NCBI RefSeq assembly: GCF_000014285.2
Contig: NC_008343.2
Location: 558,001-622,000, forward strand
Direction: 5' to 3'
Length of the DNA stretch: 64,000 bases
DNA from: Granulibacter bethesdensis CGDNIH1
Lineage (GTDB): Bacteria; Pseudomonadota; Alphaproteobacteria; Acetobacterales; Acetobacteraceae
Notes under the pieces: generated by a model
What the model was told of the DNA's origin: nothing
The model's database searches: none
The model's input: the letters and a program-made list of their open reading frames with translations, nothing else
Program-made: the position numbers and the translations under genes
Part shown: one piece after another, positions 3,823 through 35,025 of the stretch
How the letters are laid out: every line of letters begins with the position of its first letter
Position numbering within the stretch: the first letter of the stretch is position 1

Positions 3823-5100
3823 GTGATGTCGCCATCGGATCAGGCAGACGGTTCCCGTCTTTGGCTGCCGTATACGCAGATGCAGATTGCTGCTCCGCCG
3901 CTGCGGGCGGCGCGGACTTATGGTACCCGCATCGTGCTGGAGGACGGGCGCGAACTGGTGGACGGAATCGCCAGTTGGTGGACCGCCTGCCACGGCTATA
4001 ACCACCCTGCGATCATGGAGGCAATGCGGGAGCAGCTCGCCCGGATGCCGCATGTGATGCTTGGCGGTCTGGTGCATGACCCTGCCGAGACGCTGGCCAG
4101 CCGTCTCTGTGCCATTGTGCCGGGGGCGATGGAGCGGGTGTTCTTCTCCGATAGCGGCAGTGTCGCGGTTGAGGTCGCGATGAAAATGGCGATCCAGCAC
4201 TGGCTGAATCGCGGAGACAGGCGGCGTAGTAAAATCCTCGCTTTTCGCGGCGGATATCATGGCGATACCTTTGCCACCATGGCGGTGTGTGATCCGGAAG
4301 AAGGCATGCACAGCCTGTTTCAGGGCGTGCTGCCGCAGCATGTGATTGCTGATCTGCCTTGTGATGACGCATCACAGGCAAGGCTTGCCGACATTCTGAA
4401 CCGGTATGGCGATGAACTGGCCGCCATTCTGGTAGAACCGCTGGTACAGGGTGCAGGAGGAATGCGGTTTCATGCACCGGACGTGCTGCGGTGTCTGCGG
4501 GCGGCAGCAGATCAGGCGGGGATTTTCCTGATCCTGGACGAGGTGTTTACCGGGTTCGGGCGCACAGGGAGCATGTTTGCCTGCGAACAGGCCGGGATTG
4601 CCGCCGATATCGTCGTACTGTCGAAAGCATTGACGGGCGGGGTCTCTCCTCTGGCGGCCACGTTGGCGAATGGAAAGGTGACGGCCGCTTTCTGGAGCGA
4701 CCGACCGGACCATGCGCTGATGCATGGCCCGACCTATATGGGGCACGCGCTGGGGTGTGCTGCCGCTCTCGCCTCGCTCGATCTGTTCGTGCAGGAGGAC
4801 AGGCTGGCGCAGGTCGCAGCCATATCGGCCCAGCTGGAAACCGGGCTATCCCCATGTCGTGGCAGCAGGCTGGTGCGCGATGTGAGGGTGATGGGTGCGA
4901 TCGGCGTGGTTGAACTCGATCCGATGCCGCCTCTGGCTGATATCAAGGCCCGGTTGGTGGAGAGGGGCGTTTGGGTCCGTCCATTCCGTAATATTATTTA
5001 TCTCACCCCGGCTCTCATCATCGGGAAAGGTGATCTGGCCCACCTGACCGGCGCGGTGTGTGCCGTGGTAGATGAATTGAAGGCTTGCAAGACCGCATAA
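3823..5100 (+). CDS. bioA: Adenosylmethionine-8-amino-7-oxononanoate aminotransferase BioA
   Basis: Class-III PLP aminotransferase that makes 7,8-diaminononanoate from 8-amino-7-oxononanoate, with SAM as the usual amino donor. The 425-residue sequence has the BioA substrate signature LWLPYTQMQ near the N-terminus, ASWWTACHGYNHP near residue 51, the cofactor aspartate in LDEVFTGFGRTG, and the PLP lysine K268 in LSKALTGG. A GTG (3823) is followed directly by an ATG (3826), and either could start the protein. It lies 16 bases after bioB and completes bioF-bioA-bioD-bioB. No bioC or bioH candidate for pimeloyl synthesis is linked here. Confidence 0.95.
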   Translation: MMSPSDQADGSRLWLPYTQMQIAAPPLRAARTYGTRIVLEDGRELVDGIASWWTACHGYNHPAIMEAMREQLARMPHVMLGGLVHDPAETLASRLCAIVPGAMERVFFSDSGSVAVEVAMKMAIQHWLNRGDRRRSKILAFRGGYHGDTFATMAVCDPEEGMHSLFQGVLPQHVIADLPCDDASQARLADILNRYGDELAAILVEPLVQGAGGMRFHAPDVLRCLRAAADQAGIFLILDEVFTGFGRTGSMFACEQAGIAADIVVLSKALTGGVSPLAATLANGKVTAAFWSDRPDHALMHGPTYMGHALGCAAALASLDLFVQEDRLAQVAAISAQLETGLSPCRGSRLVRDVRVMGAIGVVELDPMPPLADIKARLVERGVWVRPFRNIIYLTPALIIGKGDLAHLTGAVCAVVDELKACKTA

Positions 5101-5129
5101 AAAAGAAAAGGCCGCGGAACACCGCGGCC
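5100..5129 (-). terminator. Intrinsic terminator for the pqqA transcript
   Basis: Perfect 8-bp stem GGCCGCGG / CCGCGGCC (5110-5117 and 5122-5129) with a 4-base loop. Read on the minus strand it is followed by a T-rich run (TTTTCTTTT). It sits about 100 bases after pqqA and directly after the convergent bioA stop, so it ends the pqqA message and may also serve bioA. Confidence 0.85.
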
Positions 5130-5232
5130 AGTCATCTTGGGGTCGTCGCAGAATTTATCTGCCCGCTTATCAGTCCCATCATAATCCAGATAGGCCTTTG
5201 CAGGTGCTATCCGATGATGGCTGATAAACGAA

Positions 5233-5313
5233 TTACTTCGTTTCGGCGCAAGCGTAAGCGTTGATCTCGGCGCCCAGGGCAACTTCGACAACCTTCGGGG
5301 TATTCCAGGCCAT
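5233..5313 (-). CDS. pqqA: PQQ precursor peptide PqqA (26 residues)
   Basis: Small ribosomal peptide from which the cofactor pyrroloquinoline quinone is built. It reads MAWNTPKVVEVALGAEINAY (residues 1-20) followed by ACAETK, 26 residues. It contains the obligatory glutamate and tyrosine spaced E16-x3-Y20 that PqqE cross-links, and the typical start MxWxxPxV. A GGAG lies 7 bases before the ATG. The ORF is short and easily missed. It is a single-gene unit: the terminator at 5100-5129 and convergent bioA follow, and no pqqB, C, D or E is in the window. PQQ serves periplasmic alcohol, glucose and methanol dehydrogenases, which fits an acetic acid bacterium. Confidence 0.93.
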   Translation of the reverse strand: MAWNTPKVVEVALGAEINAYACAETK

Positions 5314-5342
5314 GATGTTCTCCATGGATTGATAAAGTAATC

Positions 5343-5360
5343 CGCCTGATTATTCAGGCG
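5343..5360 (-). repeat. Hairpin/dyad in the pqqA leader
   Basis: Perfect inverted repeat CGCCTGA-TTAT-TCAGGCG with 7-bp arms and a 4-base loop, about 30 bases upstream of the pqqA start. It is probably in the 5' untranslated region, or is an operator at the promoter. There is no T-run on the pqqA-sense side, so it is not an obvious attenuator. Confidence 0.5.
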
Positions 5361-5584
5361 TGCTCTCTACATAAGCTGCTCTCATGAAAGGTCCAATGAA
5401 TTATTCTCGGGATCATCATCGGTCTGTTCGATCAACCACGTCTTTCAGGCGATTCTGAACCCTTTTCGAGGGGTGTCGGCATTTTTCGCTGCATGGCAGG
5501 GGACTTTTTTCTGGCTGTGGATGCTGGACGGGATGGTCAGGAAAGCTCTGACTCACCTTCTTGTGACGAAATGTGGACAGATAT

Positions 5585-6190
5585 ATGTGGCTCAGCAGGA
5601 TGATGCTTCGATGGAAGGCCCTGATCGCGCTAGGGGCACTGATGGGTGCATGGGGCATCATGATTCAGGTGGGGTATGCTCATAAGCCCTTGTCGCATCC
5701 GCCTGTCCACGCCCAGCCCGCCGCCACATGCGTTGCCCGTGCGCTCGATGGCGGACAGAGACGGGAATTCACCCGGGCCCCGGTGCAGCCTCCCGGAACG
5801 CTGACCGATCCGGAGGCTCCCCGGCCAGTCTATCGTCTGACCAGCCATTGTTACCCCGATCTTCAGGCGGAGGCCGCCTGTCCCACCGAATATGGGCCTG
5901 ATGCGCATCTGGCCGAATGGTTCGATATTGCGCCTTTGCTGGCGAAAAACGCTGAAGCGGCGCAGGCGCTGGGCTTTGCGATCGGGGATCTGGCATGGCT
6001 CAGTGTCAGCCATTTCAGCTATGACAAGGGGATGCAGTATTATCTGACCCGGCTGGACACGCCGCCGCCAGAGGATGCACTGATCCGTCAAACCGCGCCG
6101 CATGGCTGGATTGTCGGGCAATGGACCGGGCTGGCTCTGCCTTCCTTATGTGAGATCGGGATCAGACCGCTGCCAGCTCCGCAGGAATAA
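5585..6190 (+). CDS. Small exported or membrane-anchored protein of unknown function
   Basis: About 201 residues; not recognised. A GTG at 5573 could give four extra residues. The N-terminus has a basic stretch and a single hydrophobic segment (LIALGALMGAWGIMIQVGYA), which suggests a signal peptide or membrane anchor, followed by a proline-rich linker and a soluble domain of about 150 residues with cysteines in TSHCYP, EAACPTEYG and SLCEIG. The tail is rich in aromatic and acidic residues. It stands alone between pqqA (divergent) and dadA (same strand, 86 bases on). Codon use resembles its neighbours. Proximity to pqqA is the only functional hint and may be chance. Confidence 0.65.
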   Translation: MWLSRMMLRWKALIALGALMGAWGIMIQVGYAHKPLSHPPVHAQPAATCVARALDGGQRREFTRAPVQPPGTLTDPEAPRPVYRLTSHCYPDLQAEAACPTEYGPDAHLAEWFDIAPLLAKNAEAAQALGFAIGDLAWLSVSHFSYDKGMQYYLTRLDTPPPEDALIRQTAPHGWIVGQWTGLALPSLCEIGIRPLPAPQE

Positions 6191-7570: not shown

Positions 7571-10207
7571 ATGCAGGCTACTGAACAGACTGCTGAAGGA
7601 CGACGGCTGTCTGCATCGCAGCAATGGCGGCGCTGGGGGCCATATCTCAGTGACAGGCAATGGGGCACGGTGCGGGAGGATTACAGCGCGCATGGAGATG
7701 CCTGGGATTATTTCCCGTTCGACCATGCCGGTGCACGGGCCTATCGCTGGGGCGAGGATGGGCTGGCAGGGTTTGGCGATGATCGGCTGTACTGGTGCCT
7801 CGGGCTGGGATTGTGGAACGGGCGTGATCCGTTTCTGAAAGAACGCCTGTTCGGCCTGAACAATGCGGAAGGCAATCACGGCGAGGATGTGAAGGAAATC
7901 TATTTCCACACTGACGGCCTGCCGAGCCACGCCTTCATGCGGATGGAATACAAATATCCGCATGCGGCTTTTCCGTATGAGGCTTTGCGGCGGGAAAACG
8001 CGGCGCGCGGTCTGCATGATCCCGAATATGAGATTGAAGATACCGGCATCTTTGCAGAGAGCCGTTACTTTGACATCGACATTGTCTATGCCAAAGGAGA
8101 TGCGGACGATATTCTTTGCCGGATCACCGTACTTAATCGCGGCCCGGATGCAGAGGATATCCATCTCCTGCCAATGCTGTGGGCGCGCAACATATGGAGC
8201 TGGAAGCCCGATGCGGAGAAGCCATCCCTGACGATCATCGGCCCCCGCAGCGTTTCCGCCGAACATCCTTATATGCCGACCATGCGCTGGGATGTGGATG
8301 CCGAAGATGCAACGCTGTTGTTCTGCGAGAACGAGACGGACCCAACTTTATTTGGACAGCCCACGCGTCCTTACTGCAAGAATGCCATCAATCAAGCGGT
8401 AGTTGCAGGCAATGCATCCGCCGTTAATCCAGCACAAACCGGCACGCGTTGCGCCGCCTGGGTGAAGCGCCGTCTGGCTCCCGGTGAGCAATGCTTGATC
8501 CGTCTGCGTTTTTCAGTTCATACGCAGGTGGTTGATCCGTTTGCCGATTATGATGCGGTCATGGCCCGCCGTCAGGATGAGTGTGATGAATTTTATGAAG
8601 CTGTACAAAAGAACATTTCTGATCCAAACCTGAAACGCATCCAGCGTCAGGCATTCGCCGGAATGCTGTGGACCAAGCAGCTTTATTATTATGATGTTCA
8701 TGCCTGGTTGAATGGCGATCCGGGGCAGATCCAGCCACCTCCCTCCCGAATGCTGGGAAGGAATGCGGACTGGCAGCATTTCAATGCCTGCGATGTGATC
8801 TCCATGCCGGATAAGTGGGAATATCCGTGGTTTGCATCCTGGGATCTGGCCTGTCACTGCGTCACTTTCGCACTGATCGATCCGGATTTTGCCAAGAAGC
8901 AGCTTCTGCTGCTGGTGCAGGACTGGTTCAGCCATCCCAATGCCATGATGCCGGCATATGAGTGGGAGTTCAGCGATGCGAACCCGCCCTTGCATGCCTG
9001 GGCAACATGGCGTGTGTACTGTATGGAGCAGGAGCGTTGCGGGCGCGGAGACCGCCAGTTTCTGGAGCGTATGTTTCTGCGCCTGACGATGAACTTCACC
9101 TGGTGGGTCAATCGCAAGGATGCGGACGGGCGCAATATCTTTCAGGGTGGCTTTCTGGGGCTGGACAATATCGGTATTTTCGACCGTTCCAAACCGCTGC
9201 CGACCGGCGGACATATGAGCCAGTCCGATGGAACGGCGTGGATGGCCTCCTATGCGCTGAACCTGATGCGGATCGCCATGGAGCTGGCGGTTGAAGATCC
9301 GGTTTATGAAGATCTGGCGGGGAAATATTTCGAACATTTCCTGTTGATCGCCCGGGCGGCTTCCCAGGAAAATGGATTATGGGATGAGCAGGATCAGTTC
9401 TTCTACGACGTTCTGGTGCTGCCTGACGGGCAGAGGATGCCGCTGCGCATCCGCTCCCTGGTCGGGCTGATTCCGCTGCTGGCGGTGGCCACATGGGAAT
9501 CAGAAACCGTAGAGCACTTGCCGGATTTTCGGGCCAGAACACACTGGCTTCTGCAAAACCGGCCTGATCTCGCAAAGCTGGTGTCACGTTGGGAGGAGCC
9601 GGGCGGTGGGCGTTCGGCCCTGCTATCGTTGTTACGTGGGCACCGGATCAAGAAGCTGCTGGCGCGGATGCTGGATGAGGAGGAGTTCCTGTCTCCGCAC
9701 GGGATACGTGGTCTGTCACGTTATCATCGCGATCATCCGTATGTTTTCTCCTACGGTGGTCATAGCGTTTCGTTGCACTATACTCCGGGAGAAAGCGATA
9801 CGGGCCTGTTCGGAGGCAATTCCAACTGGCGGGGTCCGGTCTGGATGCCGGTCAATGTTCTGCTGATCGAGGCGCTGCGTGAATTCCACCGTTACTATAG
9901 CGATGATTTCCGGGTGCAGTACCCCCCTGGCAGTGACAGCACAGCATCATTGAAAGACCTGGCCGATGAGTTGTCACATCGTTTGATGACGTTGTTTCTG
10001 CCGGGGGAAAACGGTCGAATCCCGGCTTTGGGGGACAGCATCCTGTTGCAGGATGATCCCGGGATGAAAGGGAGAATGCTGTTCCATGAATATTTCCATG
10101 GTGATAGCGGACGCGGGTTGGGAGCTTCGCATCAGACGGGATGGACCGGGATGGTGGCCTTGCTGATCGACATGTTCCACCATACCCCTGAAGAAACGGG
10201 TGTATGA
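7571..10207 (+). CDS. Glycoside hydrolase, GH63/MGH1-like glucosidase
   Basis: An 878-residue cytosolic protein with no signal peptide, resembling bacterial GH63-related glucosidases that hydrolyse alpha-glucosides on an (alpha/alpha)6 barrel. Supporting blocks are FGLNNAEGNHGEDVKE near residue 95, FASWDLACHCVTFALIDPDFAKKQ near 415, GGFLGLDNIGIFDRS near 520, QSDGTAWMASYALNLM near 548, and GPVWMPVNVLLIEALR near 755. Acidic residues in the first and last blocks probably include the catalytic pair, but I cannot assign them. AGGAG sits 7 bases before the ATG; a TTG one codon earlier is less likely. Its stop overlaps the start of the next gene by 4 bases, so the two are co-transcribed. The natural substrate is unknown. 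Confidence 0.82.
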   Translation: MQATEQTAEGRRLSASQQWRRWGPYLSDRQWGTVREDYSAHGDAWDYFPFDHAGARAYRWGEDGLAGFGDDRLYWCLGLGLWNGRDPFLKERLFGLNNAEGNHGEDVKEIYFHTDGLPSHAFMRMEYKYPHAAFPYEALRRENAARGLHDPEYEIEDTGIFAESRYFDIDIVYAKGDADDILCRITVLNRGPDAEDIHLLPMLWARNIWSWKPDAEKPSLTIIGPRSVSAEHPYMPTMRWDVDAEDATLLFCENETDPTLFGQPTRPYCKNAINQAVVAGNASAVNPAQTGTRCAAWVKRRLAPGEQCLIRLRFSVHTQVVDPFADYDAVMARRQDECDEFYEAVQKNISDPNLKRIQRQAFAGMLWTKQLYYYDVHAWLNGDPGQIQPPPSRMLGRNADWQHFNACDVISMPDKWEYPWFASWDLACHCVTFALIDPDFAKKQLLLLVQDWFSHPNAMMPAYEWEFSDANPPLHAWATWRVYCMEQERCGRGDRQFLERMFLRLTMNFTWWVNRKDADGRNIFQGGFLGLDNIGIFDRSKPLPTGGHMSQSDGTAWMASYALNLMRIAMELAVEDPVYEDLAGKYFEHFLLIARAASQENGLWDEQDQFFYDVLVLPDGQRMPLRIRSLVGLIPLLAVATWESETVEHLPDFRARTHWLLQNRPDLAKLVSRWEEPGGGRSALLSLLRGHRIKKLLARMLDEEEFLSPHGIRGLSRYHRDHPYVFSYGGHSVSLHYTPGESDTGLFGGNSNWRGPVWMPVNVLLIEALREFHRYYSDDFRVQYPPGSDSTASLKDLADELSHRLMTLFLPGENGRIPALGDSILLQDDPGMKGRMLFHEYFHGDSGRGLGASHQTGWTGMVALLIDMFHHTPEETGV

Positions 10208-11016
10208 CGATGTATTTGAAAAGCTTGGGAAAATGCCTGCAATCTTTGCGTGGCAAAGCCATTCCGGTGCTGGAGCTGAAAGGTATTCTGTCCCGGCGCG
10301 GACCACTGTCTTTCGAGACGGTCGAACCCGCTATCCGCAAGGCGGCAGCACTGGCTGAGAAGCGTGGTGCGCTGATCCTCTCTATCGACAGTCCCGGCGG
10401 CTCGCCGGTGCAGTCCGATCAGATCGCCGCCCTGATCCGACGCGAGGCGGAGGAGAAATCCTTCCGGGTCTATGCCGTCATTCAGGAGGTCGGAGCCTCG
10501 GGCGGGTATTGGCTGGCCTGTGCGGCGGATGAGATCATGGCCAGCCCGATGAGCATTGTCGGCTCGATCGGCGTCGTGGGCGGAGGTTTCGGGCTGAACC
10601 GGCTGATCGAGCGGCTGGGTATCGATCGCCGCCTGCATACGGCGGGGCAAAACAAGCGCCGGGGTGATCCATTCCTGCCGGAAAAGCCGGAGGACGTGGC
10701 CTTCATCGCCGGGCTGATGGAGGATATCCATGCCTCATTCAAGGACTGGGTCAGGCAGCGTCGGGGCGCCCGTCTGACCAGTGATGAGAGTGCCATTTTC
10801 GATGGCGGCTACATGCTGGGCCGTCAGGCGGTGACGCTGGGTCTGATCGACGGACTGACCGATCTGACAGCTCTGGTGGAGCAGCTGGGCGGGAAGGGGG
10901 CACAGCCGAAGCTGTTCCGTCCCCGCCTCCGGCGGGGGCTGCTGTCCCGTCTGCCTTCGCTGAGCGCAGGTGCCCTGCTGGATGCCATGGAGGAAAGGCG
11001 GTTGGATCTGCGCTGA
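10204..11016 (+). CDS. Signal-peptide-peptidase-like serine protease (SppA/S49 family)
   Basis: A 270-residue member of the S49 family with a single catalytic domain. The Ser/Lys dyad appears to be S99 (VGASGGYW) and K151 (NKRRGDPF). The spacing of 52 residues equals that of Bacillus SppA. Other family blocks are SIDSPGGSPVQS at 60-71 and GSIGVVGG near 120. No N-terminal membrane segment or signal peptide is evident, unlike classical SppA, so it may be cytosolic or peripheral. The start overlaps the GH63 stop (ATGA). It ends 9 bases before the convergent regA stop. Confidence 0.88.
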   Translation: MTMYLKSLGKCLQSLRGKAIPVLELKGILSRRGPLSFETVEPAIRKAAALAEKRGALILSIDSPGGSPVQSDQIAALIRREAEEKSFRVYAVIQEVGASGGYWLACAADEIMASPMSIVGSIGVVGGGFGLNRLIERLGIDRRLHTAGQNKRRGDPFLPEKPEDVAFIAGLMEDIHASFKDWVRQRRGARLTSDESAIFDGGYMLGRQAVTLGLIDGLTDLTALVEQLGGKGAQPKLFRPRLRRGLLSRLPSLSAGALLDAMEERRLDLR

Positions 11017-23306: not shown

Positions 23307-23378
23307 AAAAATTCCGCTCGTATGAAAAACCGTTTTCTCTTCCGACCGTGTCGGCCAGAGATGAAAACGAAGAGAAAA

Positions 23379-23406
23379 CGGCCCGCCTGAAAAATCAAGC
23401 GGGCCG
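23379..23406 (-). terminator. Intrinsic terminator after the PCMT-like gene
   Basis: Stem CGGCCCGC (23379-23386) pairs with GCGGGCCG (23399-23406) around a 12-base loop. On the minus strand it is followed by GTTTTC. It lies about 55 bases beyond the stop of the PCMT-like gene and upstream of hldE, so the two are separate transcripts. Confidence 0.75.
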
Positions 23407-23460
23407 CTTGCTCATCAGGCACAAAAGCGTGCGTGTGGCTGCAAATATATCCGCCGTTCT

Positions 23461-24429
23461 TTATTCGACGTGAGACCCATTCGCTGGCATTGCTGTGGGA
23501 GATGCCGTCGGAGTGGCTTTCTCCATATGGGTATTATCGGAGCCCGGGCGGGGTGTTTTCATCATCGCGCCGGTCATCGGGATAAAGAACACACCGACAT
23601 CGCGCCGGGAATGGACCTTGCCCTCGGCATCCTTGGTGTAGATGTAGAGAATCTGCCCGCGCTTGAAGGGCTGCCCGATGGGAATGATCATCCGGCCATT
23701 GGGCTTCAACTGCTTCAGCAGATCCGGCGGAGCATATTGGGCGGCACAGGTGACGATGATGACATCGAATCCTCCCTCGACCTCCGGCCAGCCGAAATAG
23801 CCGTCACCGACCCGGCTGGAGATATTGTCATAGCCCAGCGGCCTGAAGATTTTCCCGACCGCCTTACCCAGCGGCTCGATAATCTCGATCGAATAGCTGT
23901 GTTTGACGATGCGGGACAGAAGAGAGCTCTGGAACCCGCTGCCCGTGCCAATTTCCAGCGTCACATGCTCGGGCTTCGCCTCGCAGACCTGAGACATGTA
24001 GGCCTGTCCAAGATAGTCGGACAGCGCCGATCCGTAGCCGAGCGCCCAGGGTTTCGGATCGGCCTCATAAGCCGCGCTTGGGGTCGGCGTATGGGTGTCA
24101 TAGTGATAGTGGTAATACTCGCGCGGTAACTGGCGGAAAGCTTCCATCACCGCCGGATCGGCATGGCCGAGCCTTTCCTTCAGATAGGATTCAATCCGTT
24201 GCAGGGCCGCAGGTTTACGGGCCTGAATGGCATCGAACGTCTTCTGATCGATCTTGCAGGGACGGCCGGACTCGGCCATCGCCTTCTCAAACCGTTCGAG
24301 CGTCCATGGCTGGGCTGCGGCGGCATCGGCTGCACGGGCCTGAGCAAACAGGCGCGGCCCTTTACTGGAGAAGGGCAGAGCAGCACCGGTGGCGGCTCCT
24401 GCAACAATCAGGGAGCGGCGGGAAAACAT
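23461..24429 (-). CDS. Protein-L-isoaspartate methyltransferase-like protein with a Tat-type signal
   Basis: 322 residues from MFSRRSLI. The N-terminus has a twin-arginine motif (SRRSLIV), a hydrophobic core (VAGAATGAALPF) and an A-x-A cleavage site near residue 33. The mature part is PCMT-like: the SAM motif LEIGTGSGFQSS, then SIEIIEPL, VGDGYFGWPE, FDVIIVTCAA and PNGRMIIPIG. Classical PCMT repairs isoaspartate in the cytosol, so an export signal is odd. An extra segment of about 60 residues precedes the fold, and the C-terminus has a Pro/Thr-rich tail. It begins 5 bases after the polytopic gene and is the last of a three-gene operon. Confidence 0.82.
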   Translation of the reverse strand: MFSRRSLIVAGAATGAALPFSSKGPRLFAQARAADAAAAQPWTLERFEKAMAESGRPCKIDQKTFDAIQARKPAALQRIESYLKERLGHADPAVMEAFRQLPREYYHYHYDTHTPTPSAAYEADPKPWALGYGSALSDYLGQAYMSQVCEAKPEHVTLEIGTGSGFQSSLLSRIVKHSYSIEIIEPLGKAVGKIFRPLGYDNISSRVGDGYFGWPEVEGGFDVIIVTCAAQYAPPDLLKQLKPNGRMIIPIGQPFKRGQILYIYTKDAEGKVHSRRDVGVFFIPMTGAMMKTPRPGSDNTHMEKATPTASPTAMPANGSHVE

Positions 24430-24434
24430 GCGGG

Positions 24435-26921
24435 TCAATATCCTTGCCTGAATTCCGCCCGGGTGGCGGAAGGCGTGTGGAACAGAAGGGCAGCCAGCCC
24501 ATACAGCATAGCGGCCCCGATCAGCAGCACGGAATAACCTTTCTGCAAAGCCAACAAATTCGCGAGGGGCGTTGCAACAACCGAAAAAGCGCCATTCACG
24601 CCCCAGGCCCAAGGTAGCAGCCCCGGCGGCGTACCATGCAGGCCCAGCGGAAAAAACAGACCAAGCAGGATGGAAACCGGCGCCAGCACGACACCCAGCA
24701 GTAGCAGTCGCAACATGATCGGCCAGTCCAGCGTGTTCAGCACCAGCGCGGGCAGGCCATACAGGATAGCGGCACACCACACTATGGTCAGTCCGGCCGC
24801 AATGCGCAGGGTGCGAGCCGCCTCCGTGGTAAAGCGCCCGGACAGCATCGCGCCGATCCCGGAAAAAATCAGCATCATGCTGAGCACGGCGGCAAAGGCG
24901 GTGGCCCGATCATTCAACCAGAAAGCGGCCTTGTCGATCAGAACGATTTCAATAAACAGAAAGCCAAGACCCAGAACTGCAAAATAGGCAACGGCGCGGG
25001 CGGTGCCTCCGGCGCTCATCCCGATCCGGCGGGGACGGATCATTGGCAGCACCAGCACGATCATGGCAAGCAAGGCGGCCTGGGCCAGTACGGCGAGATT
25101 GACCAGAGGACCGATCTCTTGTTGCGGCAGCATTTCCAGACGCTGGAGAATGGTTCCGAGATGCGACAGGCGCAGCACCGAATAAAAGAAGGGCCGATCC
25201 TCCGTGATAGGCGAGAGGTTGAAGGCACGTTGCGATCCGGTTCGCAGATCGGCATCATCCCGCTCTGACAGGACGGGCAAGGCTTCCTCTGCCACGGCAT
25301 CGGCCGGGCCGCTTCCACTGCCCACCGACCCATCCTCGAATGAAACCGGTGGCAGATCATTGTAAATCGAGGCTTTGGCGGCCTGTAGATCAATGCCGGG
25401 GAAATAGGGGACGTCGAAAGAACGCTGATCGGCAAAGTGGCGCGCAGTGGTAATCGTGCCTGCGGAGAATGGTTGATTACTGACCAGGATGCGCAGGTTC
25501 CATGCCGAGCGGTACACGATCACCCGCGTCATGGGATCGACCCCGCGTGCACGCAGCGCATCCCGTACTGTGGCCAGCAATCGCACGGCATAGGCAGGAA
25601 ATTCACGGATCGAAACAGGCAGGGACAGCACCCCGCCCGGTGCCAGGGCTCCGATCAGGGTATCGAGCGATTCACGGGTAAAGACATGGGCATTGGCTTC
25701 CTGTTCGTCGAGAAAATCCGACGAGACATCGATCATTGCAAAGGTCGCCGGATGGCGGCGTGCCACGCCGACGGGATTGGCGCCGGAGAGTTCGAAACCT
25801 CCGGGCATCAGCTTGCGCAGGATCGGGTCCGGTTCCAGTGCCGTGACATGGGCGGCTCCGAGAGCTTTGGCCTCGGCGATCCTGAATCCTCCGCCACTGC
25901 CGATCAGCAACACCTGTCCGCCTGCTTTCAGGGCTGCGCTTTCCAGTATGTAGGGCAATGCATTCAGGGCAGCAGGAGCATAGCGTGCATCAAGCCCGGG
26001 CTGCCCCGGGCCACTCAGCGGCAGGGCGGCGATCCGGTTGCCGTCGCGATAGACGCCGAGGGTCCTGGGCGGTCCGGGCAGATTGAGCATGCCGGCATCA
26101 TTGGAGATATCGGTATCGACCCGTTCCGTAAAATCCGCCAGCACATTGTAAAGACCACGCGGGGAGTCGACTTCCTGCACCATCCGTGCGCCTTCGACAT
26201 GCAGGGGGGCATAGATCGGCTTGAAATCGTTAAACGCCGCGCTGTCGTAATGCAGCGCTCCTATACCTGTTGCAAACAACAGCAGCGCCAGCGCGGTATG
26301 GGCAGCGCGTAGCCGTGGGGGCAAACGTGATCCGGCCAGCCAGCAGGCCAGCAGCAATAAAGGCAGCATGCAGGGCATCAGCTGAAATGGATGCACATAT
26401 TGCATCAGCACCAGCACCAGCAGTGCCCCGCCGCCCGCTCCGGCAAGATCATAGCCATATGTCTTGCCAAGCCTGGCCGAGCCGAGGATGAAAGACAGGC
26501 TGATATACAACCCGGTCAGAAAGAAAAACGGCAGCAAGGCCGCATAATACAGCCCGATCAGCCAGAGCTGTGGTCCGTACGTGGCCGGGTTCTGCAACTG
26601 GAGCGGATTGAACGGATTGGCCGTCACACACAGATAACCGCCTACTGCTGCGGGCAGCAGCAGCAGCGGCAAGATGGCTTGCAAGGCAGTCCCGTATTTC
26701 GTCAGAGTCTGTCGAGCCAGCGCGGTCGCAACCCCGGACAGGGCCAGACCGGCCATGACGATGGAAATGACCCAGTACCCATATTCCGACCATTTCGCGA
26801 CGGCAAAATAGCGGGTCAGGGCGGTTTCATACCCGACCGCCGCCCCGGAAATCAGGGCCAGTGCCAACAGCGGTGCTGGTCTTAATCCTGTGTTGTGATC
26901 GGAGGAGAGAGGGACACTCAT
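24435..26921 (-). CDS. Polytopic membrane protein with a spermidine-synthase-like domain
   Basis: 828 residues. The N-terminal 230 residues form about seven membrane helices (starting ALALISGAAVGYETALTRYF). The middle is a Rossmann domain of the aminopropyltransferase/SAM-methyltransferase type with LLIGSGGGFRIAEAKALG and VTALEPDPILRKLM. The C-terminus returns to membrane helices after ITEDRPFFY, a signature of membrane-bound spermidine-synthase homologues. The usual GGGDG loop reads GSGGGF, and the catalytic aspartate block is not apparent, so true aminopropyltransferase activity is doubtful. It overlaps the upstream hydrolase gene by 4 bases and is followed 5 bases later by the PCMT-like gene. 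The substrate is unknown. Confidence 0.8.
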   Translation of the reverse strand: MSVPLSSDHNTGLRPAPLLALALISGAAVGYETALTRYFAVAKWSEYGYWVISIVMAGLALSGVATALARQTLTKYGTALQAILPLLLLPAAVGGYLCVTANPFNPLQLQNPATYGPQLWLIGLYYAALLPFFFLTGLYISLSFILGSARLGKTYGYDLAGAGGGALLVLVLMQYVHPFQLMPCMLPLLLLACWLAGSRLPPRLRAAHTALALLLFATGIGALHYDSAAFNDFKPIYAPLHVEGARMVQEVDSPRGLYNVLADFTERVDTDISNDAGMLNLPGPPRTLGVYRDGNRIAALPLSGPGQPGLDARYAPAALNALPYILESAALKAGGQVLLIGSGGGFRIAEAKALGAAHVTALEPDPILRKLMPGGFELSGANPVGVARRHPATFAMIDVSSDFLDEQEANAHVFTRESLDTLIGALAPGGVLSLPVSIREFPAYAVRLLATVRDALRARGVDPMTRVIVYRSAWNLRILVSNQPFSAGTITTARHFADQRSFDVPYFPGIDLQAAKASIYNDLPPVSFEDGSVGSGSGPADAVAEEALPVLSERDDADLRTGSQRAFNLSPITEDRPFFYSVLRLSHLGTILQRLEMLPQQEIGPLVNLAVLAQAALLAMIVLVLPMIRPRRIGMSAGGTARAVAYFAVLGLGFLFIEIVLIDKAAFWLNDRATAFAAVLSMMLIFSGIGAMLSGRFTTEAARTLRIAAGLTIVWCAAILYGLPALVLNTLDWPIMLRLLLLGVVLAPVSILLGLFFPLGLHGTPPGLLPWAWGVNGAFSVVATPLANLLALQKGYSVLLIGAAMLYGLAALLFHTPSATRAEFRQGY

Positions 26922-27832
26922 TTCAGGACTGTCCGCGGCCAGACTTTTCGAGTGATAAATGATTCCATCAGCCTGTTGAATCGGTCGGCCTCATCGATGA
27001 ACAGCGCGTGACCTGCGGTGCGGAAGATGCTGATTTCCGCATTGGGGTGGCGGGCGGCAAGATTCATGGCCTGTCCTTCGAAAGCCGGGCGCACGGCATA
27101 CAGAACCGGTTTGGCAGTCGCATACACGGCTTCTTTCCAGTAGGTGCGGGGAACGGGATAGCGCAGCAGGGCCGCCGCGACATCGGGAGGGGTATGGAGT
27201 GCATCCTGGGTCAGCTGTTCCAGAAAAGCAGTTGATTGCGGCTTATGGAACATGCTGCGCACAAAAGCCTGCATTGAAGCCTGCCGATTGAGAGGGTGCG
27301 CTTTCCTGCCTCCTCGTCGCTTGCCGGAGACTGCTCCGGGGGCTGGGTTCTCGCCAATGGAATTGTCGATCAGTACCAGCCCGGCAATATGCGAATCTCC
27401 ATGCTCATGCAGATAGGCCAGCACGTCCAGCACACCGAGCGACCAGCCCACCAGCAACACGCCCGCGCCTGTGTCTCCGCCGAGTTGGGCAATGGCATCG
27501 GCAATATCCTGCCCGCGTCGCCATGGATCATAGCCGGTGGAGGGAATGTCGCTTTCCCCCTGTCCGCGCGGGTCCAGAGCGGCAACGTGAAAGCGTCTGC
27601 TGAAGAAGGTGAGCTGCCGGTCCCAGATCCAGGCGGGCATGCACCAGCCCGGCACAAACAGGATCGATGGTGCGGAGGCAGAGCCTGCCTCAATCATGTG
27701 CAGACGGATGCCATCACTGGCCGAAATGAACCGGTTATAATCAGCCGCCCGGACAGCGCGGGGTGCGCAGAGGCTGATCGCACCTGCTCCGAGCAACGCG
27801 TTCAGAAACGGTCTGCGTGACAGGAAAGCCAT
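26918..27832 (-). CDS. Alpha/beta hydrolase with a twin-arginine signal
   Basis: 304 residues from MAFLSRRPFLNALLGAGA. The SRRPFLN motif, hydrophobic stretch and A-x-A site near residue 28 indicate Tat export. The mature enzyme is an alpha/beta hydrolase: oxyanion block FVPGWCMPAW, nucleophile elbow GWSLG and late histidine in TAGHALFIDEADRF. An AAGG about 9 bases before this ATG supports the start; the frame is open for 33 codons further upstream. It is the first gene of an operon with the spermidine-synthase-like and PCMT-like genes (4-base overlap). The natural ester or amide substrate is unknown. Confidence 0.85.
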   Translation of the reverse strand: MAFLSRRPFLNALLGAGAISLCAPRAVRAADYNRFISASDGIRLHMIEAGSASAPSILFVPGWCMPAWIWDRQLTFFSRRFHVAALDPRGQGESDIPSTGYDPWRRGQDIADAIAQLGGDTGAGVLLVGWSLGVLDVLAYLHEHGDSHIAGLVLIDNSIGENPAPGAVSGKRRGGRKAHPLNRQASMQAFVRSMFHKPQSTAFLEQLTQDALHTPPDVAAALLRYPVPRTYWKEAVYATAKPVLYAVRPAFEGQAMNLAARHPNAEISIFRTAGHALFIDEADRFNRLMESFITRKVWPRTVLK

Positions 27833-28071
27833 GCCGGATGCCTTTTCATGTCCATACCGGACAGCAGAGGCGCCAAAGGAAAGTCTTGCGCATGAGGCGA
27901 TCAGGCAAGACCGGGCGGCCCGGTGTGTCAACCTGTGCTGCTGTCTGCCGGCTATTGTGGAAGTCTACAGAAAGTTTGGTTACGCGGTGGCGCAAGGATT
28001 GCTTCCATCTTACAACCGGAAGCACGGCACTTCACGCCGCCTATTCCGCCGGTGAAACAGTTGGACACCCC

Positions 28072-31000
28072 ATGTCGATCCATGTCGCTCTTACCCACCG
28101 CACTTCCTACCGGTATGAAAAGCCCGCGGCTCTGGGGCCACAGATCATCAGGCTGCGCCCCGCACCACATGCCCGCACCCCGGTGCTGTCCTATGCGCTG
28201 AAGGTCGAGCCTCAGCCGCATTTCATCAACTGGCAGCAGGACCCCCAAGGCAATTTTCAGGCGCGGGTCGTGTTTCCGGAAAAAGTCACTCATTTCGATG
28301 TGACGGTCGATCTGGTTGCCGATATGGCAACGATCAATCCGTTCGACTTCTTTCTGGAACCGGAAGCGGAAATCTGGCCCTTCGCCTATGATCCGGTGCT
28401 GGAGCATGAGCTGGCTCCCTTCCGTCGCCAGGAAGAAGCCGGCCCTCTGCTGAAGGCGTTTCTGGATGAACTGCCTAAGCCGGATGGGGAGGGCGATGGA
28501 CTGCCCACCATCAACATGCTGGTCGATCTGAACCGCCGGGTGCAGGAGCGTGTCAATTACGTCGTCCGCCTGGAACCCGGCGTGTTTACGCCGGAGGAAA
28601 CGCTTGAAAAGCAGCTTGGCTCCTGCCGTGACAGCGCGTGGTTGCTGGTGCAAGTGCTGCGGCATCTCGGTTTCGCGGCGCGGTTCGTCTCCGGCTATCT
28701 GATCCAGTTGACGGCGGATGTGAAGCCGCTGGATGGCCCGGCTGGCCCGGATGAGGATTTCACCGATCTGCATGCCTGGGCCGAGGTGTACCTGCCCGGC
28801 GCGGGCTGGATCGGGCTGGATGCGACCTCCGGCCTTATGGCGGGGGAGGGGCATATCCCGCTGGCCGCGACGCCGGAACCGGCTTCGGCAGCCCCGATCT
28901 CCGGCCTGATCGAAAAGGTGGAAACCGAATTCGACTTTGCTATGGGCGTGACGCGGATCAAGGAAACACCGCGCACCACCAAACCTTATATCGAGAAAAC
29001 CTGGCAGGATATTCTGGCCGCTGGTGCCCGGACCGACCGTGCGCTGAACGCCGGTGATGTGCGCCTGACCATGGGGGGCGAGCCGACTTTCGTCTCTGCG
29101 ACCGATTTCGAGTCTGCGGAGTGGAAAACGGATGCGCTGGGGGAGACCAAGCGCGCTTATGCCGGTCGTCTGATGCGTCGCCTGACGGCCCTCTGGTCAC
29201 CGGGGGCTGCGATGCATCTGGCGCTCGGCAAGCATTATCCGGGTGAGCAATTGCCGCGTTGGGCCCTGTATGCGCACTGGCGGGTGGATGGGGAGCCGGT
29301 CTGGACCGATCCGGCCCTGCTGGCGGATGACGACACGGTCGATCACGCGACCCCGGAGGATGCGCGTCGTTTTGCCCGGGCGCTGGCAGAGCGGCTGGAG
29401 GTCGATGCCGGTCTGGTCGCACCTGCTTATGAGGATATCCATTACTATCTGTGGCGCGAATCCCGTCTGCCCGCCAATGTTCTGGCGGAAGGCAGCAAAC
29501 TGCGTGATGCGGCGGAGCGGGCAAGGCTGGCGCGTGTGTTCGGGCAGGGGCTGGATGCGGAAGTCGGCAGTATCCTGCCGCTGCGCCGCGCCATTCTCGA
29601 TGGGCGCCGTATCTGGCAGTCCGGGCGCTGGTTCTTCCGGGGGGATACGCTGTTCCTGATCCCCGGCGATGCCCCGATCGGCTTCCGTCTGCCGTTGCAA
29701 AGTCTGCCATGGGCCGATCCGTCCAGTCTGGATACCGATTTTCCGCTGGACCCGTTTGCGCCCAGAAATCCATTCGCGCCCCGTGCCGCCTACAGTTGGG
29801 GACATGGTGGTCCATCCCGTGAGGGCGGTCCGTCACGGGATGGTATGGAAGCCGCCTATGCGACCCGCAGCGGGCAGGGTGCCCTTTATCGGCAGGGCGC
29901 GACGGCCTATGTCTCTCCCGGTGCATGGCTGGAACGTCCGGTCCGGCAGGAAGCGCCGGTCATCGGGCGCGATGAACCCGATGTGGTCCGCACCGCGCTG
30001 GCGGTTGAGGCGCGTGGTGGTGTGCTGCATGTCTTCCTGCCACCGCTCTACGATGCGGAGGATTGGCTGGAACTGGTCGCTCGGGTGGAGGACACGGCCC
30101 GCGCCGAAGGCCGTCCCGTGGTGCTGGAAGGCTATGCGCCGCCGGAAGATCCGCGTCTGCTGTCTTTCTCCATCACCCCTGACCCTGGCGTGCTGGAAGT
30201 GAACGTGCATCCCTCGGAAAACTGGGCGGTGCATGTGGAGCGGACCGAACAGCTCTACGAAGAAGCGCGCGCGGTCGGGCTGGCGACCGAAAAATTCATG
30301 CTTGACGGCACCCATGTCGGCACGGGTGGCGGCAATCACGTGGTGATGGGTGCGGCCCATGCTGCCGACAGTCCGTTCCTGCGGCGGCCCGACCTGCTGA
30401 AGTCGATGCTGGGTTTCTGGCATAACCATCCCAGCCTGTCCTACCTGTTCAGCGGATTGTTCATCGGCCCGTTCAGCCAGCATCCCCGCATCGACGAGGC
30501 GCGGGAGGACAGCGTGCGGGAGCTGGAGATCGCGTGCGAACGGGTCTCCCCCTTCAGCCCCACTCCGCCCTGGCTGACCGACCGGATTTTCCGCAACATT
30601 CTGGCGGATGTGACCGGCAACACGCATCGTACCGAGTTCTGCATCGACAAGATGTATGCGCCGGAGAGCAGCTCCGGCCGTCGTGGTCTGGTCGAGTTCC
30701 GGGCGTTCGAGATGCCGCCTCATGCGCGTATGTCCGCGGCGCAGGCTTTGCTGATGCGGGCGGCTGTGGCGGCATTCTGGCAGTTCCCTTATGAGCGCCG
30801 TCTGATCAGGTGGGGTACGCGCCTGCATGATGATTTCATGCTGCCGCATTACGTCGCGCAGGATCTGAAGGATGCGCTGGAACATCTGGCGGGTGCCGGG
30901 CAGCGTCTGGATCCGGACTGGTTCCTGCCGCATCAGGAGTTCCGCTTCCCGTTGGTCGGTGAAATCGCCGTGCGCGACATGGTGGTGGAACTGCGGCATG

Positions 31001-31488
31001 CCCTGGAGCCATGGCACATTCTGGGCGAGGAGCCTGCTGCCGGCGGCACCGTACGCTATGTGGACAGCGCGGTCGAGCGTTTGCAGGCACGGGTCACCGG
31101 ATGGTCAGCGGAACGTTACGTCCTGTCCTGCAATGGCGCAGAGGTGCCGTTGCAGAAAACCGAAACGCAGGGCGAATACGTGGCAGGTGTCCGGTTCAAG
31201 GCCTGGTCACCGCCAAGCTCCCTGCACCCCACCATTCCGGCGCATGGGCCCTTGGTATTCGATGTGTATGACAGCTGGACCGGGCGTTCGCTGGGCGGCA
31301 TGACCTATCACGTGTCTCATCCGGGCGGACGGAACTATGATCGTTTCCCTGTAAATGCGAACGAGGCCGAGGCGAGGCGTCGCGCCCGTTTCTTCCCGTT
31401 CGGCCATACATCCGGGCCGATGGAGCGTCCTCGCCTTCTGCCTAACCCGGAACAGCCGCGGACGCTCGATCTGCGGCGGGGACACTGA
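28072..31488 (+). CDS. Transglutaminase-like domain fused to DUF2126 putative amidoligase
   Basis: 1138 residues from MSIHVALTHRTSY. Residues 1-290 are a bacterial transglutaminase/protease-like domain with its beta N-terminal part and a Cys-His-Asp triad: C185 (GSCRDSAW), H234 (LHAWAEVY) and D250 (GLDATSG). From about residue 335 (DVRLTMGGEPTF) to the end is the large DUF2126 region, which Pfam describes as a putative amidoligase; conserved blocks include NVHPSENWAVH and GTGGGNHVVMGA. The frame is open 85 codons further upstream, but that part overlaps the divergent hydrolase gene and has no family features. It is the first gene of the amidoligase-type cluster. The product it makes is unknown. 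Confidence 0.88.
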   Translation: MSIHVALTHRTSYRYEKPAALGPQIIRLRPAPHARTPVLSYALKVEPQPHFINWQQDPQGNFQARVVFPEKVTHFDVTVDLVADMATINPFDFFLEPEAEIWPFAYDPVLEHELAPFRRQEEAGPLLKAFLDELPKPDGEGDGLPTINMLVDLNRRVQERVNYVVRLEPGVFTPEETLEKQLGSCRDSAWLLVQVLRHLGFAARFVSGYLIQLTADVKPLDGPAGPDEDFTDLHAWAEVYLPGAGWIGLDATSGLMAGEGHIPLAATPEPASAAPISGLIEKVETEFDFAMGVTRIKETPRTTKPYIEKTWQDILAAGARTDRALNAGDVRLTMGGEPTFVSATDFESAEWKTDALGETKRAYAGRLMRRLTALWSPGAAMHLALGKHYPGEQLPRWALYAHWRVDGEPVWTDPALLADDDTVDHATPEDARRFARALAERLEVDAGLVAPAYEDIHYYLWRESRLPANVLAEGSKLRDAAERARLARVFGQGLDAEVGSILPLRRAILDGRRIWQSGRWFFRGDTLFLIPGDAPIGFRLPLQSLPWADPSSLDTDFPLDPFAPRNPFAPRAAYSWGHGGPSREGGPSRDGMEAAYATRSGQGALYRQGATAYVSPGAWLERPVRQEAPVIGRDEPDVVRTALAVEARGGVLHVFLPPLYDAEDWLELVARVEDTARAEGRPVVLEGYAPPEDPRLLSFSITPDPGVLEVNVHPSENWAVHVERTEQLYEEARAVGLATEKFMLDGTHVGTGGGNHVVMGAAHAADSPFLRRPDLLKSMLGFWHNHPSLSYLFSGLFIGPFSQHPRIDEAREDSVRELEIACERVSPFSPTPPWLTDRIFRNILADVTGNTHRTEFCIDKMYAPESSSGRRGLVEFRAFEMPPHARMSAAQALLMRAAVAAFWQFPYERRLIRWGTRLHDDFMLPHYVAQDLKDALEHLAGAGQRLDPDWFLPHQEFRFPLVGEIAVRDMVVELRHALEPWHILGEEPAAGGTVRYVDSAVERLQARVTGWSAERYVLSCNGAEVPLQKTETQGEYVAGVRFKAWSPPSSLHPTIPAHGPLVFDVYDSWTGRSLGGMTYHVSHPGGRNYDRFPVNANEAEARRRARFFPFGHTSGPMERPRLLPNPEQPRTLDLRRGH

Positions 31489-31612
31489 ACAGGGTGGGAT
31501 TGTTTGACAGAGGGGGTGGGTGCATGCCGAACTGTGCATGTGCTGTCGAAAGAAGGTGGACACCCCCTGATGCGCCGCTAAAACCAGTGTTCATGGCAGA
31601 TGGACAAGGCAT

Positions 31613-34141
31613 GTGAGCGTCGTCGAAGGGCTGGATGAGATGGTCGATGGCCAGGGGAGCATACGCCCCCACTGGCGCTCCATCCTTGGAACCCTGACCG
31701 CGCTGGGGGATGGAGGCATCGCTCAGCGCGCCCGCCGGCTGGACCGCATGTTCGAGCAGGAGGGCGTCTCCAGCTTGATTCCCGGCACGGTCGAGCGTGA
31801 GGGGTGGCGGTGCGATCCGGTGCCTTTGCCCATCACGGCGCGGGAGTTCTCGACCCTGGCGCGGGGGCTGGCACAGCGTGCCTCCCTGCTGTCGGCCATG
31901 GTGCAGGACGTCTATGGACCGCAACGGGTTTTGTCGGAAGGCTGGCTGCCTCCCGCACTGATTTATGGAAACCGGGCTTTTCTGCGCGCCTGTCGCAGTC
32001 AAATGGATCGTCCTTCCGACGGGCATAATGGCACTGCCTCGGGTCAGAGGCTCGATTTCTACTCCGCCGATCTGATCCGGGCGCCGGATGGGCGATGGCA
32101 TGTGCTGGCAGACCGGACATGCGGCTGTGCGGGGCTGGGCTATGCGCTGGAAAACCGGCGCATTCTGGCCCGTGTGATGCCGGAATCGTTCCGCGTCGCG
32201 CATGTGCGCAGGTTGCGGCCTTTCTTCGATTTCTGGCTTGACCGGTTGCAGGAAATTGCGCCGCACAGCGAGGATGGGCAGCCGCAGCATAATCCGATGA
32301 TCGTGCTGCTGACACCCGGTTATCGCTCGCCGCAATGGTTCGAGCATATGTTTCTGTCGCGGGAATTGTCCTGTGCGCTGGTTGAGGGCGGCGATCTGAC
32401 CGTTCGCAATGGTCGGGTTTTTCTGAAAACCCTGCGTGGGTTGCAGCCGGTGGATGTCGTCATCCGCCGGACAGACGGGATGGCGGTAGATCCGCTGGAG
32501 CTCGCACCGGGGCCGGGAACGGTCGGTCTGCTGGAAGCGGCGCGCAGCGGCAGTGTCACCATCACCAATTCCCCCGGCACGGATATGGCGGAGGCCCCGG
32601 GCCTTGCCGCGTTCATACCGTTGCTGGCCGAAAAAATGCTGGGCGAGGCATTGCATATTCCCCAGGTGCCTTCGCTCTGGCTGGGGGAGGAAACGGCGTG
32701 GGCGGAGGTCCGGCAGGATCTGTCCCGCTGGGTGCTTCGTTCGGCCATGGATAGCAGTGAGACCCCCATTATTGCCGGTGCTTTGTCGGAGGATGAGCGG
32801 GCTGCACTGGAAAAGACCATTGCCGTGAATCCCGGCCGCTGGTCCGCCTTCGCGCATATGGTACCTTCCCGGGCACCTTGCGCCGGGCCTGATGGGCTGA
32901 CGCCACGGCCCATCACGCTGCGTGTCTTTCTGGCCTGGGATGGCACAGCATGGCGTGCCATGCAGGGTGGGCTTGCTTATGTCGTGCAGGAGGGGCAGGC
33001 GGGAGGTGCGCGTCTGGCTTCCCATGGCATGAGCAAGGATGTCTGGGTTCTGGCGGATGATCATCAGGATCTGGCCGGTCCTGCTTTGCGCGTTGTCACG
33101 CGACTGGCACCCCGCCGCACGGCGGCTGCCGTGCCGAGCCGGGTGGCTGATAATCTTTATTGGCTGGGGCGTTATGTGGAGCGGCTGGACAGTGATGCGA
33201 GGCTGGCCCGTGCCGTATTGATCCGGTTGAATCGTGGCCTTCTGCTGCCGCATGAGATGGTGGAGCTGGATACGCTCGGTCAATGTCTGGCGACCTCCGG
33301 CCTGCTTTCATCGCCGGTGGGGGCGGGGGCGCATGGTCTGTTGGCCAGCGGATTGCTCTCGGCAACACGGGATGATGGCGCGCTGGGGATTCTGCTGGGT
33401 CGGGTTGCCCGGTTGACGGAGCTGGTGCGGGATCGCCTGACCGATGAAATGTATGCCACCTTCACCACCACCCTGCGCAGTGCGCGGGCAGAGACGTTGA
33501 TCACCGGCAAAAGTCTGGATCAGATGGCGCAGGCCATGGCGGAAATATCCCGCTTCTGCACGGCCGTTTCCGGTGCTGCGGCGGAAAATATGGTGCGCGG
33601 TGGCGGCTGGATGTTTCTGGAGCTTGGGCGTCGGATCGAACGGGCATGGACATCCGCCGGTATGCTCGCAACAGTTCTGGATACGCGCCCGTCCTGGCTG
33701 GAGACAGGTCTGCGCATCGCACTGGAATTATGCGACAGCGCCATAACCTACCGGAATCGGTATCTGACGGCGATCCAGCCTGATCCGGCGCTGGATCTGG
33801 TGATTGCCGATCCCGACAATCCACGCAGCCTGTTTTTTCAGCTCGTTGCGATCAAGGAGCGGTTGATGCAGGTCGCCGAGGCCGCACAGCAGCCGGACGA
33901 GGCAGCCGGTTTGATTGCGGCCGCAAACGCGTTGGGTGAGGACGCTGTCGCCATTGCCGGAGATGTGGTCAAGGCGGATGATCCATATGCTGCCACGTTG
34001 ACGGCGGCGAAGCGTTTGCGGGGGCTGGAAACAGGTGTGGCCGCTCTTTCCGACCAGATTACCCGTCAGTATTTCACCCTGCTGCCCAGCCAGTCCGTCG
34101 GACAGCCGCGGCTGGCGGAGGAAGATGGGGTGGTATCGTGA
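31613..34141 (+). CDS. Circularly permuted ATP-grasp protein fused to an alpha-E domain
   Basis: 842 residues starting at GTG (AAGG six bases upstream). Residues about 1-490 match the circularly permuted ATP-grasp family (DUF404/407): RLDFYSADLIRAPDGRWHVL, then NPMIVLLTPGY, GLAAFIPLLAEKMLG and the catalytic-region segment VNPGRWSAF. From about residue 505 the alpha-E (DUF403) domain begins with its signature SRVADNLYWLGRYVERLD and continues as a helical bundle. In many bacteria the two are separate genes; here they are one polypeptide. ATP-grasp ligases form peptide-like bonds. It lies 124 bases after the DUF2126 gene and overlaps the next transglutaminase by 4 bases. Substrates are unknown. 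Confidence 0.88.
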   Translation: MSVVEGLDEMVDGQGSIRPHWRSILGTLTALGDGGIAQRARRLDRMFEQEGVSSLIPGTVEREGWRCDPVPLPITAREFSTLARGLAQRASLLSAMVQDVYGPQRVLSEGWLPPALIYGNRAFLRACRSQMDRPSDGHNGTASGQRLDFYSADLIRAPDGRWHVLADRTCGCAGLGYALENRRILARVMPESFRVAHVRRLRPFFDFWLDRLQEIAPHSEDGQPQHNPMIVLLTPGYRSPQWFEHMFLSRELSCALVEGGDLTVRNGRVFLKTLRGLQPVDVVIRRTDGMAVDPLELAPGPGTVGLLEAARSGSVTITNSPGTDMAEAPGLAAFIPLLAEKMLGEALHIPQVPSLWLGEETAWAEVRQDLSRWVLRSAMDSSETPIIAGALSEDERAALEKTIAVNPGRWSAFAHMVPSRAPCAGPDGLTPRPITLRVFLAWDGTAWRAMQGGLAYVVQEGQAGGARLASHGMSKDVWVLADDHQDLAGPALRVVTRLAPRRTAAAVPSRVADNLYWLGRYVERLDSDARLARAVLIRLNRGLLLPHEMVELDTLGQCLATSGLLSSPVGAGAHGLLASGLLSATRDDGALGILLGRVARLTELVRDRLTDEMYATFTTTLRSARAETLITGKSLDQMAQAMAEISRFCTAVSGAAAENMVRGGGWMFLELGRRIERAWTSAGMLATVLDTRPSWLETGLRIALELCDSAITYRNRYLTAIQPDPALDLVIADPDNPRSLFFQLVAIKERLMQVAEAAQQPDEAAGLIAAANALGEDAVAIAGDVVKADDPYAATLTAAKRLRGLETGVAALSDQITRQYFTLLPSQSVGQPRLAEEDGVVS

Positions 34142-35025
34142 AATTCCGTGTCCGCCATCTGACCCGCTATCACTATGAAGATCCGGTCGATCTTGCCAGC
34201 CATATCCTGCATCTGACGCCGCGTGATTGTCGCGGGCAACAGGTTCTGACAACAGGGTTGGACATCGAACCTGCCCCTTCCCGTCGCGTGGATGGGCGGG
34301 ACCATTTCGGCAACCATCTCTCATGGCTTTCACTGGATCAGTCGCATCAGGTTTTTTCCGTCATGGCGGAAAGTATAGTGGAAGCCTTTTTCCCGCCTCC
34401 TCCACCCGATGAAGAGACGCCTGCCTGGGAAGAGGTCGCGGCCTTGGCCCGTGCGGGCAGTGGTACGGCTATGGAGGCGGCGGAATATGTATTTCCCAGT
34501 GTGATGGCCCCGGCTGATCCCGATGCAGGCCGCTATGTCGCTGTCAGCTTTCCTCCTGGACGGCCTGTTCTGGCTGCGCTGCGCGATCTGCTGGCGCGGA
34601 TCAGGGGAGAATTCAAATTTCGGGCCGGCATTACCGATCTGCACACGCCGGTTTCGCGGGTGGTAGCCCAAAAGGCGGGTGTCTGTCAGGATTTCAGCCA
34701 TATGGTGATTGCTGGCTTGCGTTGGCTCGGCCTGCCGGCCCGCTATGTCTCCGGATATATCCGTACCTATCCTCCGCCGGGACAGAAACGGCGGGAGGGA
34801 ACGGATGCATCCCATGCCTGGGTCGGATGCTGGCTTGGTCCTGCGCATGGCTGGGTGGATATCGACCCCACGAATAACCTGATCGTGTCCGATGAACATG
34901 TGGTGGTCGGCTGGGGCCGTGATTATGATGATGTCAGCCCGGTACGTGGCATCATTCTTGGCGGCGGCCGCCATGATATGCTGGTCAGTGTTGACCTGGC
35001 ACCGCTGGAGGAGGAGGTCACCTGA
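34138..35025 (+). CDS. Transglutaminase-like protein (bacterial transglutaminase/protease family)
   Basis: 295 residues starting at a GTG that overlaps the previous stop (GTGA). It has the N-terminal beta domain (FRVRHLTRYHYEDPV) and a papain-like core with triad C183 (GVCQDFSH), H226 (ASHAWVG) and D243 (DIDPTNN). All three catalytic residues are intact. No signal peptide is present, so it acts in the cytosol. In this widespread cluster the transglutaminase-like protein is thought to cleave or transfer peptide bonds on the product of the ATP-grasp and amidoligase partners. It is the last gene of the cluster; the antiporter gene follows 36 bases later on the same strand. Confidence 0.9.
   Translation: MKFRVRHLTRYHYEDPVDLASHILHLTPRDCRGQQVLTTGLDIEPAPSRRVDGRDHFGNHLSWLSLDQSHQVFSVMAESIVEAFFPPPPPDEETPAWEEVAALARAGSGTAMEAAEYVFPSVMAPADPDAGRYVAVSFPPGRPVLAALRDLLARIRGEFKFRAGITDLHTPVSRVVAQKAGVCQDFSHMVIAGLRWLGLPARYVSGYIRTYPPPGQKRREGTDASHAWVGCWLGPAHGWVDIDPTNNLIVSDEHVVVGWGRDYDDVSPVRGIILGGGRHDMLVSVDLAPLEEEVT

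Follow-up and report, generated by a model that had tools for sequence, protein, structure and literature searches.

The window, a 64,000-nucleotide stretch of the Granulibacter bethesdensis CGDNIH1 genome (2,708,434 bases, single contig), contains three adjacent minus-strand genes, labelled A, B and C (Table 1). A overlaps B by four bases (ATGA, 26921-26918), B is separated from C by a 5-base gap (24434-24430), and an intrinsic terminator lies 3′ of C; this layout, described in an earlier sequence-only reading of the locus, was recovered in full, and the three genes form one operon and are co-translated. A is an alpha/beta hydrolase (Pfam PF12697, 5.8e-16) and C is a PCMT relative (PF01135, 3.6e-35); B has no Pfam match and no qualifying NCBIfam match. 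A transglutaminase plus DUF2126 amidoligase, a circularly permuted ATP-grasp plus Alpha-E, and a second transglutaminase lie divergent from the operon at 28051-35025 on the plus strand, and this cluster is not kept beside A-B-C in other loci. A larger operon was rejected, as no further neighbour is conserved within the clade.

Table 1 Features of the A-B-C operon, by position in the window
Feature	Positions	Strand	Description
Gene A	26918..27832	-	alpha/beta hydrolase, predicted exported, 304 aa
Twin-arginine signal of A	27746..27832	-	MAFLSRRPFLNALLGAGAISLCAPRAVRA; segment MAFLSRRPFLN
Gene B	24435..26921	-	14-TM MFS-fold protein, 828 aa (P0002)
Spermidine-synthase-like domain of B, residues 229-549	25275..26237	-	inserted between TM7 and TM8; predicted periplasmic
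Gene C	23461..24429	-	PCMT-like methyltransferase, predicted exported, 322 aa
Twin-arginine signal of C	24328..24429	-	MFSRRSLIVAG...AQARA
Loop of C at the position of the PCMT isoaspartate loop GxGQTISQPY	23995..24039	-	GYGSALSDYLGQAYM
SAM motif I of C	23929..23958	-	LEIGTGSGFQ
Intrinsic terminator 3′ of C	23376..23409	-	15 pairs and T-rich tail

Conservation of the gene order

Close relatives of the operon were collected as 80 loci retrieved by similarity to C. The A-B-C order recurs in nearly all of those that extend far enough, in Acetobacteraceae and relatives, Caulobacteraceae, and Rubrivivax and other Burkholderiales, with protein identities of ~61-79% for C, 45-58% for B and 41-58% for A. 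When all open reading frames around the C loci were clustered, every other neighbour was confined to ~9 loci or fewer. Since the order recurs at 41-79% identity across Alpha- and Betaproteobacteria and other neighbours do not exceed ~9 loci, the linkage is greater than expected by chance. Conserved linkage outside the genus had been proposed as the strongest test of the sequence-only reading, and it was found, with a core of B and C reaching into remote relatives.

When 398 genomes of the phylum were searched with a profile of B, remote homologs with 25-30% identity emerged, and a PCMT gene lies directly upstream of B in the remote loci with enough sequence. A second, broader profile gave 26 loci that carry about 11 different family labels, with repeated sampling of one family; in this phylum-wide sample a PCMT is adjacent to B in 23 of the 23 strong-scoring loci and in none of the three weakest-scoring ones. 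The pair is annotated as "protein-L-isoaspartate O-methyltransferase / SAM-dependent methyltransferase" on plasmids of Phyllobacterium, Microvirga and Paraburkholderia, and both genes are unannotated on a Rhizobium jaguaris plasmid, where the PCMT has a Tat signal. Remoter B-like fusions of MFS and spermidine-synthase-like parts have no adjacent PCMT at L172, L173, L174 and L186 (Legionella adelaidensis plasmid), and possibly have different partners. Downstream of the C-B pair at one locus, L138, positions 9745-10422 encode a Phage Tail Collar domain protein (PF07484) that appears to have a signal sequence.

One complete Caulobacteraceae-type genome lacks A, which identifies B and C as the core and the hydrolase as an optional partner. 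In a Brevundimonas-type locus without A (L136), an LD-carboxypeptidase-like gene (5006-5896) lies ahead of B, with a gene for an Mpl-like ligase further out on the opposite strand; both were recognised by eye.

Export signals of the hydrolase and the methyltransferase

Signal sequences were assessed by motif and hydropathy only, using a rule for choosing start codons that demanded a basic and hydrophobic N-terminus and did not demand RR. A, C and the C orthologs have the features of a Tat signal, namely a twin-arginine motif, a hydrophobic stretch and an AxA cleavage site, and in Caulobacteraceae C orthologs the RR is followed by a lipobox. The sequence-only reading had assigned twin-arginine signals to both A and C, which holds for the two proteins of this operon and for C as a family (RR near the N-terminus in 81/81 orthologs), but not for the A family, where the signal is mostly Sec-like and only 23 of 58 orthologs have the RR motif. 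A PCMT repair enzyme is expected in the cytosol, whereas the motifs conserved throughout the C orthologs predict an exported protein. Export of A and of C is supported by these sequence features. Wrong start codons behind the RR segments were rejected as an explanation, as orthologs keep the signal, including in lipobox and signal-anchor forms; a true start downstream of the twin-arginine segment, named beforehand as grounds for abandoning the export claim, was not borne out.

Remote B-linked PCMTs have Sec-type signals and, in a few cases, Tat signals. The B-linked PCMT of one genome (L183) has a signal anchor followed by a long charged stretch and no cleavable signal, and the same genome encodes a second PCMT without a signal. 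Among PCMTs of relatives that do not adjoin B, nine of ten have no signal, and two unlinked, signal-less PCMTs nest beside linked exported ones in the tree, indicating that export tracks linkage to B and not ancestry alone. For some remote PCMTs (Phyllobacterium, Paraburkholderia) the RefSeq start falls inside or after the signal, and at L185:2360 and L188:3200 the RefSeq start codons remove signal peptides of exported PCMTs or cut into them; misplaced RefSeq starts may have hidden exported PCMTs from surveys. Sec export unfolds proteins, so Sec-routed members cannot carry SAM out with them, and transport of the cofactor within the folded enzyme, possible for Tat, therefore cannot explain the whole family.

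Structure and conserved residues of C and B

Structure prediction, proposed as a check in the sequence-only reading, gave a PCMT fold for C, and every SAM-site residue is retained. The AlphaFold2 core of C is confident (pLDDT mostly >90 for residues 41-120 and ~80-97 across most of the Rossmann domain), and its closest structures are PCMTs, E. coli Pcm (Z 20.5) and the PCMT-like subunit of Paracoccus complex I (Z 20.7). C has SAM motifs I, post-I and II; E159, G161, T162, G163, S164, G165, E182, D209 and G210 are invariant in 59 C sequences, and most are also present in remote members. C shares with PCMT/Pcm the C-terminal F(I/V)P(L/M) motif in addition to the fold and SAM motifs, but differs in its predicted export, in having extra N-terminal helices (residues 32-70) and in its constant neighbour B. 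It also scores below the NCBIfam equivalog cut-offs (141 vs 188 bits for NF001453 and 102 vs 159 for TIGR00080). The genome encodes two clear PCMT-family proteins, C and one with a degenerate loop.

A further difference from PCMT is in the substrate loop. The PCMT loop GxGQTISQPY aligns without gaps to GYGSALSDYLGQ, which is nearly invariant within the clade, and in the 59 orthologs the TISQP-type loop is absent, with S-A/V-L-S-D-Y-L-G-Q in its place; the substrate choice of C has thus probably changed. Remote B-linked PCMTs retain TISQP or TISGP and score as PCMTs, which would suit extracytoplasmic isoaspartate repair, with a periplasmic C mending aged envelope proteins (which are long-lived), B acting as a scaffold or second enzyme, and SAM arriving by an unrelated route. 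However, the almost invariant change from Q-T-I-S-Q-P to S-A-L-S-D-Y in the window's clade and the sub-threshold NF001453 score of C argue against repair, which also leaves the tight linkage of B and C unexplained, and we regard it as unlikely. The sequence-only reading had offered modification or repair as alternatives; the replaced loop makes repair less likely for this clade, and, judged from the loop, such a role would be likelier for the remote relatives that keep TISQP.

C also has an added set of conserved His and Tyr residues (H107, Y108 and Y110). Together with the altered substrate loop, and with SAM not being expected in the periplasm, these could indicate that the SAM sites are relics and that C and B are non-catalytic or, once exported, bind something other than SAM, for instance a peptide or a metal. 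Relics drift, whereas the motifs through which C contacts SAM do not vary among the 59 orthologs and are kept in most remote members, and this explanation appears very improbable.

The model of B (pLDDT 89, pTM 0.91) consists of seven helices, a 370-residue domain and seven further helices. The membrane part has an MFS fold, and MFS transporters of the SV2A and FLVCR1/2 type are its closest structural relatives (Z 22-28), with SV2A at Z 28.3 (356 residues, rmsd 3.4) and the choline transporter FLVCR2 at 24.7, ahead of XylE at 19.1, although B has two extra helices flanking the Rossmann domain and no Pfam MFS match. SV2A has a large non-cytoplasmic loop after TM7, as is predicted for B. Summed K and R over 57 B orthologs average 13.9 in the even (cytoplasmic) loops and 1.8 in the odd loops, which places the inserted domain outside, in the periplasm; a cytosolic Rossmann domain is disfavoured by this positive-inside count and by the seven preceding helices.

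Residues 229-549 of B form a confidently modelled spermidine-synthase fold of the aminopropyltransferase type (Z ~15-18 against spermidine synthases). Unlike spermidine synthases, P0002 is below Pfam detection for PF01564, and the domain lies within a 14-TM protein. The Rossmann domain noted in the sequence-only reading is present in the membrane protein, but its GGGDG loop, described there as lost, is altered to GxxGG and not absent. G341xxG344G345 and E363 are invariant in 57 close orthologs, in which D398/D402 are also conserved; R37, W44, S53, K234, E363 and E658 are invariant even across the broad family, and the glycine loop varies in remote members, so that the domain may have a different ligand or no ligand at all.

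An alternative in which B itself catalyses the principal reaction would account for the spermidine-synthase fold, the invariance of E363 and the conservation of D398/D402. As an aminopropyl- or methyltransferase anchored in the membrane, B would modify a lipid, a polyamine or a small molecule through its periplasmic Rossmann domain, and C and A would catalyse the subsequent steps of a small pathway in the envelope. Some remote B proteins score weakly as aminopropyltransferases, and three of the 15 sequences in the broad B alignment match PF01564. Against B as the main enzyme stand the missing Pfam match of P0002 and the altered GGGDG loop, and transport is suggested by the MFS fold together with R37 and E658, two conserved residues located in membrane helices. 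We consider an enzymatic role of this kind for B improbable.

A candidate module for carboxyl methylation outside the cytoplasm

The reading that we favour, with a confidence slightly short of even, is that A-B-C constitutes an extracytoplasmic SAM-dependent carboxyl-methylation module. C, derived from PCMT and exported by Tat, would convert a carboxylate to its methyl ester in the periplasm with SAM as donor, and its target in the window's clade would probably not be the standard isoaspartate, given the altered loop. SAM is not known to occur in the periplasm. B would most likely deliver SAM across the membrane, or exchange SAM for SAH, for its neighbour C; supply by the polytopic partner, as suggested in the sequence-only reading, fits the MFS fold and the periplasm-facing SAM-type domain. 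A, as a predicted exported esterase, would most likely hydrolyse or resolve the methyl ester, making the modification reversible. Computation supports the operon, its conserved linkage, the export signals, the retained SAM site of C, the folds of B and C and the topology of B; we infer activity of C outside the cytoplasm, movement of SAM by B and the target of A.

S131 (GWSLG), D156 and H275 are invariant in A orthologs. In the TISGP subtype, a different hydrolase-like protein follows B in 12/14 loci, often overlapping the B stop codon, and has Ser, Asp and His in alpha/beta-hydrolase-like positions, with a signal sequence in several cases. Only the nucleophile-elbow region of this second protein aligns with A (hhalign 32%). 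Members of this family (L143:9035-10036, L147:9340-10275, L148:8845-9936 and relatives) have invariant S191, D217 and H286, and no Pfam or NCBIfam match. Recruitment of a hydrolase by two subtypes would fit either a writer-and-eraser or a product-processing role.

To our knowledge, bacterial SAM-dependent enzymes are taken as confined to the cytoplasm. In the open-access literature searched, neither exported PCMTs nor their pairing with B were found to be described. PCMT-derived enzymes have been recruited for peptide modification as RiPP-associated PCMT homologs, the graspetide methyltransferases (PMC8939145). C matches the graspetide methyltransferase family TIGR04188 at 5e-15, below its cut-off (56 vs 380 bits); graspetide methyltransferases sit in ATP-grasp maturase loci and have no B partner, whereas C pairs with B.

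These findings suggest a mode of extracytoplasmic carboxyl methylation that has not been described. That many Proteobacteria perform periplasmic SAM-dependent protein carboxyl methylation, served by an MFS-type carrier of SAM or SAM/SAH that is devoted to this task and encoded beside the exported methyltransferase, with an exported esterase removing the mark, is a broader proposal that we advance tentatively and consider somewhat doubtful. If true, it would assign a role to a widely distributed membrane protein that has no Pfam match in this clade and whose homologs are often annotated only as "SAM-dependent methyltransferase", and the combination of an exported methyltransferase with a transporter-shaped partner would make a periplasmic methyl-donor pool directly testable.
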